A DNA stretch of 45,582 nt from Gammaproteobacteria bacterium (GTDB lineage: Bacteria; Pseudomonadota; Gammaproteobacteria; Steroidobacterales; Woeseiaceae). Positions 26,567-45,582 of the stretch are shown here, piece by piece. Every line of letters starts with the position of its first letter. Position 1 is the first letter of the stretch. The notes under the pieces were generated by a model that was not told the DNA's origin, searched no databases, and saw only the letters and a program-made list of their open reading frames with translations. The stretch is from positions 1 to 45,582 of the forward strand of contig JAACFB010000031.1 in the NCBI GenBank assembly GCA_009937615.1. The letters run 5' to 3'. The translations under genes were made by a program, and so were the position numbers.

Positions 26567-27097
26567 ATGAAACAGTTTCGAGGCACAACGATTGTCTCCG
26601 TGCGCCGCGGCGGCAAAGTCGCAATCGCCGGAGACGGCCAGGTCAGCATGGGTAACACCGTGATGAAGGGCAATGCGCGCAAGGTCCGGCCGCTGGCGGG
26701 TGGACGGGTAATCGCCGGCTTCGCTGGCGGCACTGCCGATGCGTTTACGCTGTTCGAGCTTTTTGAAAGCAAACTCGAGCAGTACGGAAACCTGACGCGA
26801 GCCGCAATCGAGCTCGCCAAGGACTGGCGCACGGACCGGCGTTTGCGGCGACTCGAAGCTTTGCTTTGTGTCGCTGACACCGAAAATTCTTTCATCATCT
26901 CGGGCAACGGCGACGTGATCGAACCTGAACATGATCTCATGGCGATCGGCTCCGGCGGCCCTTATGCTCAGGCGGCGGCCCTGGCGCTGCTGCAGAACAC
27001 GGATCTCGACGCAAAAACGATCGCAGAGAAAGCACTGAACATAGCCGGCGATATCTGCGTGTTCACCAACCACAATATTGCCATTGAAGAACTGTAG
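26567..27097 (+). CDS. hslV: HslV (ClpQ) protease subunit
   Basis: This 176-residue N-terminal nucleophile peptidase starts MKQFRG, a short propeptide; cleavage would expose catalytic Thr7 (GTTIVSVRR). [13 protein letters not shown] and [11 protein letters not shown] are typical. Enteric HslV has only Met before Thr; the six-residue propeptide is common in other proteobacteria. It forms a dodecamer capped by HslU hexamers and degrades heat-shock substrates. It is followed by hslU after 57 nt. Confidence 0.97.
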
Positions 27098-27154
27098 GCC
27101 CGGTCGCCAGCCGGCAAGGTCCGCCAGTCGGCCGCCTGCAACAGGAACCAATCT

Positions 27155-28492
27155 ATGTCACAGATGACGCCAAGAGAAATTGTCCAGGAACTGGACAAGC
27201 ACATCGTCGGCCAGGACGAGGCTAAACGCGCTGTCGCCATTGCGCTGCGTAATCGCTGGCGGCGCGTCCAGGTCGACGAACCGTTGCGCAGTGAAATTAC
27301 GCCAAAGAATATTCTGATGATCGGGCCGACGGGTGTCGGTAAAACCGAAATTTCACGACGCCTTGCCAAACTTGCGAAAGCTCCTTTCATCAAGGTCGAG
27401 GCAACCAAGTTCACCGAGGTTGGCTACGTCGGCCGCGAAGTCGACAGCATAATTCGCGACCTGATGGACGTCGCGATCAAGCTAATCCGCGAAACGGCGA
27501 TGGCCAAGGTTCGACATCGCGCCGAGGATGCGGCGGAAGAACGTGCACTGGACGCACTGCTGCCACCGCCATCGCAGGGGGTTGGCTTTACGGCCGGCAG
27601 CGAAGCACCTGCCGATAGCGACACCCGCCAGAAATTTCGCAAGATGTTGCGCGAGGGCAAGCTCGACGACAAGGAAATCGAGATCGAGATCCAGGCGATG
27701 CCGATTGGCGTCGAGATCATGGCGCCGCCCGGCATGGAAGAGATGACAAGCCAGCTCCAGGGCATGTTCCAGAACCTGGGCGGAAGCCGCCGCAAGACGC
27801 GCAAGCTCAAGGTCAGCGACGCATTGCGGCTGCTGACCGACGAAGAAGCCGCGAAGATGATTGACGAAGAAGAGCTCAAGGCACAGTCACTTGAAGCCGT
27901 CGAGCAGCACGGCATTGTTTTTCTCGACGAGATCGACAAGGTGGCGCGGCGTTCCGAAACGCAGGGCGCTGACGTATCCCGGGAAGGGGTACAGCGCGAC
28001 CTCCTGCCCCTGGTCGAGGGCTCGACCGTCACCACCAAGTACGGCATGGTACGAACCGATCACATACTTTTTATCGCCTCGGGCGCGTTCAATGTCTCCA
28101 AGCCGTCGGACCTGATTCCCGAACTGCAGGGCCGGTTCCCGATCCGCGTCGAACTGAAATCATTGTCGACCGATGACTTCGTCCGGATCCTGACCGAGCC
28201 GGACGCGTCGCTGACGTTGCAATACCGCGCCTTGCTTAACACCGAAGAGGTCACGATCGAATTTACCGACAGCGGCGTGCGCCGGATAGCCGAAGTCGCT
28301 TTCCAGGTTAACGAGAACACCGAGAACATCGGTGCTCGAAGACTGCACACGGTCATGGAGCGGCTTCTGGAGACTATTTCCTTCGAAGCGTCCGATAAAA
28401 GTGGCGCTCATCTGCAGATCGATGCAGGCTATGTCGACGATCATCTCGCCGAACTTTCGAAAGACGAGGATCTGAGCCGGTATATTCTATAG
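27155..28492 (+). CDS. hslU: HslU (ClpY) AAA+ unfoldase
   Basis: This 445-residue ATPase has Walker A GPTGVGKT (57-64), an intermediate I domain (about 105-240, rich in Glu/Lys), Walker [10 protein letters not shown] and the C-terminal SRYIL tail, which inserts into HslV to activate it. The pore signature GYVG (about 90-93) is present. It is co-transcribed with hslV, and its stop lies directly against the next start codon. Confidence 0.98.
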
Positions 28493-43643: not shown

Positions 43644-44368
43644 TAAGACTCGAGGATGTGACCAAGCGGTACCCGGGCGGCCAGGAAGCGCTATCGGGAT
43701 TGAGTCTCTCGATCGACAAAGGGGAGATGGTGTTCGTGACGGGCCACTCGGGCGCGGGCAAAAGTACCCTGCTGAGGCTCATCGCTTTGATAGAGCGGCC
43801 AACGCGCGGCCAGGTCATCGTCGACGGGCAGAATACCCGCCGGGTGAAACGGCGCAAGATACCGGCCTACCGGCGGCAGATCGGCATGGTCTTCCAGGAT
43901 CATAAGCTGCTATACGACCGCCCGGTTTTCGACAACGTTGCGCTGCCGCTGATCATTGCCGGCGTCGGCTATCGCGATGCGGGCCGTCGCGTCCGGCCCG
44001 CGCTCGAGCAGGTCGGCCTGCTGCACAAGGAAAAGCAGAATCCCGAAACGCTGTCGGCCGGCGAGCAGCAGCGCGTTGGAATTGCCAGGGCGATCGTGAC
44101 CCGGCCCAAGCTGCTGATTGCCGACGAGCCTACCGGTAATCTTGACCCTGACTTGTCGCTCGAGGTCATGCGCATCTTTCGTCGATTCAATGAAGTCGGC
44201 GTCACCTTACTCATTGCGAGCCACGATATTTCCCTGATCGACCGGCTGGGCTGCCGGCGCGTCGACCTCGAGGATGGCCGCCGCGTCGAGGACGCGTTCG
44301 AAGACGATGAGTTCGTTGCCGACGAATCCGTCCCCGCAGCTACCGGCGAGCCTCCCCGATGGCCGTGA
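43640..44368 (+). CDS. ftsE: Cell-division ABC ATPase FtsE
   Basis: This 242-residue ATPase has Walker A GHSGAGKST, signature LSAGEQQRVGIARAI and Walker B LLIADEPTGNLD. With FtsX it controls amidase activation at the septum. It carries an acidic C-terminal tail of about 20 residues beyond the usual end (EDDEFVADESVPAA). It overlaps ftsY by 4 nt and ftsX by 10 nt. Confidence 0.97.
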   Translation: MIRLEDVTKRYPGGQEALSGLSLSIDKGEMVFVTGHSGAGKSTLLRLIALIERPTRGQVIVDGQNTRRVKRRKIPAYRRQIGMVFQDHKLLYDRPVFDNVALPLIIAGVGYRDAGRRVRPALEQVGLLHKEKQNPETLSAGEQQRVGIARAIVTRPKLLIADEPTGNLDPDLSLEVMRIFRRFNEVGVTLLIASHDISLIDRLGCRRVDLEDGRRVEDAFEDDEFVADESVPAATGEPPRWP

Positions 44369-45324
44369 CGCGGCATTCGGATGCGGTCGCACCGGTGCGT
44401 TCATCGGGGCCGTTCACCTCATGGCTGGCCCGCCACTTTCGTACCGCGATCGGGTCGTTCGGCCGCCTGCTGCGGCAGCCGTTTGCAAGCCTGATGATCG
44501 TGCTCGTGATCGCGGTGACGCTTGCGATACCGGCCGCTTTGAACCTGATCGTCAAGAACGTCCAATCGGTCAGCGCCGGCTGGGACAACGCGCTCGACTT
44601 TTCGATTTTTCTGAGACGCGATGTGTCGGAGACCGACGCCGAAAAACTCGCCGAGATTATCGGTCAACGCGCCGACGTCGAGCTGGTGCGCCTCATAACC
44701 GCCGATGAGGCCCTGGAGGAATTCAAACGACAGTCCGGTTTCGGTCCGTCGCTTGACCAGCTTCGCGATAATCCGCTGCCGCAGACGATCGTCGTCCGGC
44801 CTGGCGCGGCCAACACCAGCCAGTCGATGATCCTGCTGCACGAGGAACTCGGCAATCTACCCGAAGCCGATGCGGTGCAGGTCGACACGGAATGGGTGCA
44901 GCGATTCCATGCCATCCTCGACATCGTCAGGCAGGCTATTACGATCGGCGCCGCGCTGCTCGGGATCGCAATCATCGTCATCATCGGTAATACGATCCGG
45001 CTGGATATTCAAAACCGTCGCGAAGAAATTGAGGTGACCAAGCTCATCGGCGCCAGTAATGCGTTCGTGCGTCGGCCTTTCCTTTGGTCTGGCTTCTGGT
45101 ATGGCCTGTTTGGTGGCCTGCTGGCGCTGACGCTCGTTCAGTACGGCCTGTTTCTGCTCGAGCAGCCCGTAGCCCGGCTTGCAGGGCTTTACCAGGCCGG
45201 CATCGTCGTAAAGAACCTGTCTGCCGGCGAAATGCTGTCCATTCTCGGCATCGGCGTTGCCCTCGGGCTTGCCGGCTCGTGGTTGGCGGCGGCGCGCCAC
45301 ATGCGGCGGATCGAGCCGCGCTAA
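44359..45324 (+). CDS. ftsX: Cell-division permease FtsX
   Basis: This 321-residue membrane protein has the FtsX layout: a cytoplasmic N-terminus, a first membrane helix (about 45-66), a periplasmic domain (about 67-190) that binds amidase activators, and three C-terminal helices (about 192-212, 240-262 and 288-308). It overlaps ftsE by 10 nt and precedes rpoH as in many gammaproteobacteria. Confidence 0.95.
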   Translation: MAVTRHSDAVAPVRSSGPFTSWLARHFRTAIGSFGRLLRQPFASLMIVLVIAVTLAIPAALNLIVKNVQSVSAGWDNALDFSIFLRRDVSETDAEKLAEIIGQRADVELVRLITADEALEEFKRQSGFGPSLDQLRDNPLPQTIVVRPGAANTSQSMILLHEELGNLPEADAVQVDTEWVQRFHAILDIVRQAITIGAALLGIAIIVIIGNTIRLDIQNRREEIEVTKLIGASNAFVRRPFLWSGFWYGLFGGLLALTLVQYGLFLLEQPVARLAGLYQAGIVVKNLSAGEMLSILGIGVALGLAGSWLAAARHMRRIEPR

Positions 45325-45362: not shown

Positions 45363-45390
45363 ATAACTTGTTGTTTTTAAAAGTTATAAT
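45363..45390 (+). promoter_or_regulatory. Predicted rpoH promoter with inverted repeat
   Basis: A perfect TATAAT (45385-45390) lies downstream of a weak -35. A perfect 7-bp inverted repeat ATAACTT (45363-45369)/AAGTTAT (45381-45387) covers the -35 to -10 region. The predicted start is near 45397, so the CIRCE element falls at about +24 to +50. Confidence 0.5.
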
Positions 45391-45420
45391 GATTTCGGCA
45401 CGATGGAACCTTAGGTACTG

Positions 45421-45447
45421 TTAGCACTCTAAATTGCCGAGTGCTAA
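45421..45447 (+). promoter_or_regulatory. CIRCE element (HrcA operator) in the rpoH leader
   Basis: TTAGCACTC-N9-GAGTGCTAA is a perfect match to the CIRCE consensus, including the nine-base spacer. It lies 26 nt upstream of the rpoH start and ahead of the ribosome site (GGAGGT at 45463-45468). HrcA binds CIRCE at DNA level, and the dyad can also form an mRNA hairpin. hrcA itself is not in the window. Confidence 0.95.
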
Positions 45448-45473
45448 AATTGGGCCCTGAACGGAGGTACCGA

Positions 45474-45582
45474 ATGACAACTGCAGTTGCCACTTTGAGT
45501 CGAGACATTATGCTGGCCGGACCGGTCGGTAGCCTCGATAACTACATCCATGCCGTAGGCGCTATCCCGGTTTTGAGCCAGG
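45474..45582 (+). CDS. rpoH: RNA polymerase sigma-32 factor RpoH (5' end only)
   Basis: The frame from ATG 45474 runs off the window edge after 36 codons. The visible product starts MTTAVATLSRDIM and contains GPVGSLDNYIHAV and IPVLSQ, the conserved RpoH N-terminus. GGAGGT lies upstream. Position after ftsY-ftsE-ftsX is the standard gammaproteobacterial place for rpoH. Expression is probably under HrcA through the CIRCE element in its leader. Confidence 0.92.
   Translation, partial: MTTAVATLSRDIMLAGPVGSLDNYIHAVGAIPVLSQ

Follow-up and report, generated by a model that had tools for sequence, protein, structure and literature searches.

In the window analysed here, a stretch of 45,582 nucleotides (positions 1 to 45,582 of contig JAACFB010000031.1, assembly GCA_009937615.1) from a gammaproteobacterium of the family Woeseiaceae, the HrcA operator CIRCE in the rpoH leader shares bases with a sigma-E-like promoter and with an extended -10 element. 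Because operator bases are shared with both -10 elements, HrcA bound to CIRCE would probably block the two putative promoters alike. What the sequences themselves show are the operator, the promoter-like elements with their fixed spacing and conservation, and the genes hrcA, groESL and rpoE. The feature is real, broadly conserved and known in kind; the anatomy of the interlocked promoters looks new.

The operator occupies positions 45421-45447 of the forward strand and is an exact CIRCE (TTAGCACTC-TAAATTGCC-GAGTGCTAA, 0 mismatches), as an earlier, sequence-only reading of this DNA had claimed; none of 100 shuffles produced a match at 3 mismatches or fewer. The same reading had placed it between a TATAAT box and the rpoH ribosome binding site, and both were found where it had put them, at 45385-45390 and as GGAGG at 45463-45467 (Table 1). 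The gene 3' of CIRCE, which starts with the ATG at 45474, is very likely rpoH, since ftsY-ftsE-ftsX lies directly upstream and GSLDNYIHAVGAIPVLSQ resembles the full-length RpoH of relatives. A full rpoH was not found elsewhere in the assembly, in which two TIGR02392 matches (frames of 305 and 626 aa) stayed below the cut-off. Drafts of two relatives of the same genus, G006 and G033, likewise contain no RpoH over cut-off.

Table 1. Features of the rpoH leader and its surroundings, in positions of the window.
Feature	Position	Strand	Basis or remark
ftsX, last gene of ftsY-ftsE-ftsX, before rpoH	44359-45324	+	TIGR00439, E 1.5e-100
TATAAT of the sequence-only reading, not conserved	45385-45390	+	read directly
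sigma-E-like -35, GGAACCT	45405-45411	+	GAAC kept in 54/58 rpoH leaders
CIRCE, the known HrcA operator	arms 45421-45429 and 45439-45447	+	exact consensus TTAGCACTC-N9-GAGTGCTAA
sigma-E-like -10, TCTAA (TC is the end of the CIRCE left arm, TAA lies in N9)	45428-45432	+	16-nt spacer
extended -10, TGC-TAAAAT (CIRCE right arm plus AAT)	45442-45450	+	final T in 58/58
ribosome binding site, GGAGG	45463-45467	+	read directly
rpoH, first 36 codons, cut by contig end	45474-45582	+	N-terminus resembles relatives' RpoH; downstream of ftsY-ftsE-ftsX

Both promoter-like elements interlocked with CIRCE had been missed in the sequence-only reading. An extended -10 element of sigma-70 promoters reads TGnTAnnnT and makes the -35 optional, and sigma-E promoters have a spacer of about 15-17 nt. 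The TGC-TAAAAT of the rpoH leader fits the first of these forms, and a promoter scanner pairs its TAAAAT and TG with a -35-like TTAGCA at 45421-45426 (spacer 18). GGAACCT-N16-TCTAA fits the sigma-E promoter form, each element being one base off the canonical -35 GGAACTT and -10 TCAAA as given in one report (PMC4890791). Across the genome of the window the strict sigma-E pattern had 3 matches, the rpoH leader included, and the reversed-pattern control 4; as this is no enrichment, we do not claim a sigma-E regulon.

The genome carries the partners that such an arrangement would call upon. The sequence-only reading had proposed a search for hrcA and for CIRCE at groESL, and both are there: hrcA lies within hrcA-grpE-dnaK-dnaJ (TIGR00331, E 4.9e-100; PF01628, E 6.9e-63), and an exact CIRCE precedes groES-groEL, itself preceded by a sigma-32-like CTTGAAA-N13-CCCTATTA. 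This copy and that of the rpoH leader, both exact, are the only two CIRCEs of the whole assembly when up to 3 mismatches are allowed; hrcA-grpE-dnaK-dnaJ is without one at this threshold. RpoE is encoded as well (TIGR02939, E 7.2e-89, over cut-off), with an RseB-like gene two places after rpoE (E 1.8e-41, under the curated cut-off) and a gene without family hit between them. GAACTT-N16-TCTAT lies upstream of this rpoE, and a sigma-E-like motif was found at 20 of 30 rpoE loci of relatives, 19 times at much the same distance and once elsewhere; among the 10 loci without the motif are three in which the start was not located. Since rpoE loci carry the motif, the RpoE of this lineage plausibly recognises it. 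We do not claim a feedback from sigma-32 to HrcA, as no match to a sigma-32 promoter was found before hrcA in any of the 24 relatives' loci that could be anchored (30 tried, six not anchorable). CIRCE (up to 3 mismatches) lies near hrcA in 2 of these 24 loci. As for htpX, hslV and hslU, named by the sequence-only reading as likely sigma-32 targets, the genes are indeed in the window (regions 954-1847 and 26567-28492) but their control by sigma-32 is unsupported: the strict sigma-32 pattern has no match anywhere in the window, htpX is preceded by a CTTGAAA without a good -10, and by eye no sigma-32 promoter was seen in the region upstream of hslV.

The conservation of the arrangement was followed in 60 genomes, consisting of the window genome and 59 relatives. 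A CIRCE match (up to 3 mismatches) is present in 59 of them and an RpoH over cut-off in 57. From these, 60 rpoH leaders were compared, that of the window included and two each coming from G015 and G024. CIRCE (at most one mismatch) precedes rpoH at 58 of the 60 loci, 56 times exactly and twice with one mismatch, and these 58 leaders come from 57 genomes. With hrcA present and CIRCE found before rpoH in relatives as well, neither of the two absences that the sequence-only reading had named as fatal to its proposal was encountered. The two leaders without CIRCE are those of G047 and of the second rpoH of G015 (L084), a copy whose product is over cut-off. In G047 (L066), the rpoH leader carries a sigma-32-like CTTGAAA-N13-CCCCAATTA plus a TGGTAAAAT; CIRCE matches are lacking throughout this genome, neither hrcA nor an RpoE over cut-off was detected, and rpoH looks as though it had passed to another regulator.

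What is conserved around the rpoH CIRCE becomes clear by comparison with the groESL CIRCEs of the same genomes. This control was a subset of the listed sites, the 33 loci given being reduced to 31 by two not recognised as groES, and its CIRCEs are exact in 21 cases, with one mismatch in 8 and with two in 2. GAAC ending 10-12 nt 5' of CIRCE was found in 54/58 rpoH leaders versus 1/31 at groESL, AA at positions 2-3 of N9 in 48/58 versus 1/31, and T at the third base 3' of CIRCE in 58/58 versus 2/31. Fisher values for these comparisons are all below 1e-13, a significance that is overstated because the relatives are not independent; counted by family (n=15), GAAC is present in 13, N9-AA in 11 and T in 15. 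The spacers of the sigma-E-like promoter in the 54 leaders with GAAC are of 16 nt (34 leaders), 17 nt (18) or 15 nt (2). Conversely, the 50 nt before CIRCE contain the CTTGA of a sigma-32-like -35 at 26 of the 31 groESL loci versus 2 of the 58 rpoH loci. The groESL CIRCE is the same operator with the same predicted repressor, but it differs in its sigma-32-like promoter and in the rarity of GAAC, N9-AA and T.

These data bear on the promoter that the sequence-only reading had taken as the relevant one. If rpoH were transcribed from the upstream TATAAT, CIRCE would be an ordinary operator in the leader of that transcript, HrcA would act as a roadblock and sigma-E would be uninvolved. The TATAAT is there, and the 58 leaders are A/T-rich before CIRCE (AT content 0.58-0.68 at 31-60 nt, falling to 0.39-0.41 at 91-120 nt), which would suit such a promoter; yet TATAAT (at most one mismatch) occurs in 16/58 leaders, no more often than in shuffles (15.9). 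A start at TATAAT also leaves unexplained why GAAC keeps its spacing, why the letters of TCTAA recur and why the T never varies, features that groESL CIRCEs seldom show. TATAAT was consequently dropped as the main rpoH promoter, and we regard the roadblock explanation as unlikely.

A second possibility is that the inverted repeat works at the mRNA level, by forming a hairpin or thermometer. Given a transcription start upstream, the predicted fold of the leader RNA would join the CIRCE arms in a stem of 8 pairs, but the stability of this fold is not out of the ordinary (z -1.21; matched by 25 of 200 shuffles). Moreover, both starts predicted from the interlocked promoters fall within or 3' of CIRCE, and a near-invariant arm sequence is what we would expect of a protein operator. 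A role in the mRNA therefore seems extremely improbable to us.

The distribution of the regulators among the relatives was also compared with that of their putative sites. hrcA was undetected in 7 of the 60 genomes, six of which (G019, G030, G032, G039, G048 and G054) retain the rpoH CIRCE, as would be the case if it were a functionless relic. The drafts of these six are 79-100% complete, so gaps may explain some of the missing genes, not surely all. Against a relic stand the arms themselves, exact or one mismatch away at all but two of the rpoH loci, and the seventh genome, G047, where the only complete absence of CIRCE matches among the 60 coincides with an undetected hrcA; we find this explanation very hard to credit. 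RpoE over cut-off is missing in 9/60 genomes. GGAAC is retained at rpoH in G004, G011 and G042, in which the RpoE match is absent or weak, and at least GAAC in G036, G044 and G054, which have partial RpoE matches. GAAC is absent from four of the 58 CIRCE-bearing rpoH leaders (G007, G041, G048 and G055), and the RpoE matches of G041 and G048 are likewise weak.

The arrangement extends beyond the relatives of the window genome. The class sampled was taken as Gammaproteobacteria in the broad sense, for the named layout records bear titles of Gamma- and Betaproteobacteria and of their members. A composite pattern made of GGAAC, CIRCE and N9-AA, in which rpoH was no part of the query, matched at least 118 named contig stretches. 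rpoH lies downstream in 114 of the 118 listed, 113 of these having the T after CIRCE; of the other 4 listed, three have too little downstream DNA and one (L182) looks like chance. Three metagenome bins (L186, L188 and L196), under the titles Bordetella parapertussis or Klebsiella pneumoniae, also show the composite before rpoH. To our knowledge HrcA and CIRCE are not expected in Klebsiella, and the Klebsiella titles are therefore probably wrong.

A survey of 369 genomes of the class found an exact CIRCE in 210 and GAAC-CIRCE in 88, while the reversed pattern was found in none. rpoH adjoins GAAC-CIRCE in 79 of the 83 tested of these 88, and was not adjacent in the remaining four (G127, G147, G216 and G380). 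From the matches listed, 20 CIRCEs lacking an overlapping GAAC were also taken; 8 belong to rpoH, 7 to groES, and 5 were left unassigned by the script. All 8 of these rpoH CIRCEs are followed by the T, and in 3 of them a sigma-E-like promoter is found further upstream (0.04 expected). In some lineages (L306, L323 and L324) the sigma-E-like promoter starts 32-43 nt before CIRCE, without overlap.

For a sample independent of CIRCE, 114 genomes of the class were searched for RpoH, which gave 102 loci in 101 genomes. Eighty leaders from 80 families were taken, namely the best 81 of the 102 rows minus one of the two of G088, with the 21 lowest-scoring left out. CIRCE (at most 2 mismatches) is present in 59 of these 80 leaders. 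Among the 59, GAAC overlaps in 39 and the sigma-E-like promoter is displaced in 8, and the pattern used found neither form in 12; 55 have the T after CIRCE. The sigma-E-like pattern itself was found in 50 of the 80 leaders, against 1.4 expected from shuffled letters, and in 5 of the 21 leaders without CIRCE. One leader, L385 (G067), has an additional CIRCE with one mismatch immediately 5' of the main one.

The 8 displaced promoters also help to decide whether the conserved flanks could be an enlarged HrcA operator rather than promoters. That the flanks are conserved together with CIRCE would fit an operator of larger size. The flanks are, however, rare at groESL CIRCEs (1, 1 and 2 of 31 for GAAC, N9-AA and T). 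The sigma-E-like motif keeps its 15-17 nt spacer in the 8 of 59 class leaders where it stands apart from CIRCE, and it is carried by rpoE loci as well. An enlarged operator is accordingly a very improbable explanation, and we retain the reading of the flanks as promoters interlocked with CIRCE.

Parts of this arrangement are known from other bacteria. A comparative study of 2004 lists, as a candidate HrcA site, an exact CIRCE located at -51 relative to the start of Geobacter sulfurreducens rpoH, and names groESL as the only constant HrcA target (PMC545781). Rarity of the wiring is not supported: it has been known in kind since that prediction (PMC545781), and CIRCE precedes rpoH in 59 of 80 sampled families. 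G. sulfurreducens resembles the genome of the window in having CIRCE at both rpoH and groESL, but it is a delta-proteobacterium and a single one of the genomes which that study covered, has a CIRCE at hrcA-grpE-dnaKJ unlike the window genome, and the accessible text mentions no sigma-E overlap or extended -10 at its rpoH CIRCE (PMC545781). As for the other half of the arrangement, RpoE of Vibrio alginolyticus was assayed for binding to the rpoH promoter (PMC4890791). RpoE acting at this promoter lets envelope stress feed the heat-shock sigma factor; unlike in the window, the accessible part of that report describes no overlap with CIRCE (PMC4890791). HrcA and CIRCE are absent from E. coli according to the 2004 study (PMC545781), and E. 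coli was not among the control matches of our hrcA profile search. Neither the interlocked arrangement nor its breadth was met in the titles and abstract beginnings surveyed in the open literature; a 2003 comparison of beta-, gamma- and epsilon-proteobacteria, the likeliest earlier source, lies outside this coverage. In E. coli itself, rpoH has a sigma-E-dependent promoter, P3, by which envelope stress likewise feeds the heat-shock sigma factor.

We propose that RNA polymerase with sigma-E and with sigma-70 would start at the elements interlocked with CIRCE, both predicted starts lying inside the operator or 3' of it. HrcA on CIRCE would cover the sigma-E -10 as well as the extended -10, so that rpoH would stay low until the repressor is released. 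Titration of GroE, or heat, would inactivate HrcA, as is reported for this repressor in other bacteria. In Campylobacter jejuni, GroE makes HrcA bind more strongly, and the same report cites comparable modulation in Bacillus subtilis and Chlamydia trachomatis (PMC8533110). Misfolded protein occupying GroE would thus make HrcA fail and free groESL and rpoH, while newly made GroE would restore HrcA and close the loop. Envelope stress would add sigma-E activity, whose full reach to rpoH would be attained only with HrcA off. If GroE modulates HrcA in this lineage too, the supply of GroE would govern rpoH as well as groESL.

Gammaproteobacterial heat shock is taught on the model of E. coli, where translation, chaperones and proteolysis are the main controls on sigma-32. 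Gating of rpoH by HrcA, through an operator fused to sigma-E and housekeeping promoters, could instead be the usual design of Gammaproteobacteria and the HrcA-less state of E. coli a derived one, a tentative generalisation to which we give somewhat less than an even chance. Should it hold, cells that have retained the gate would adjust sigma-32 transcriptionally, according to their supply of chaperonin. If HrcA vetoes rpoH transcription in many families, the two circuits usually held to be alternatives would form one loop, in which GroE supply would act on its own operon as well as on the sigma factor that makes GroE. The shared bases would, in addition, offer a clean and testable example of a single operator shared by two promoters that different sigma factors read.
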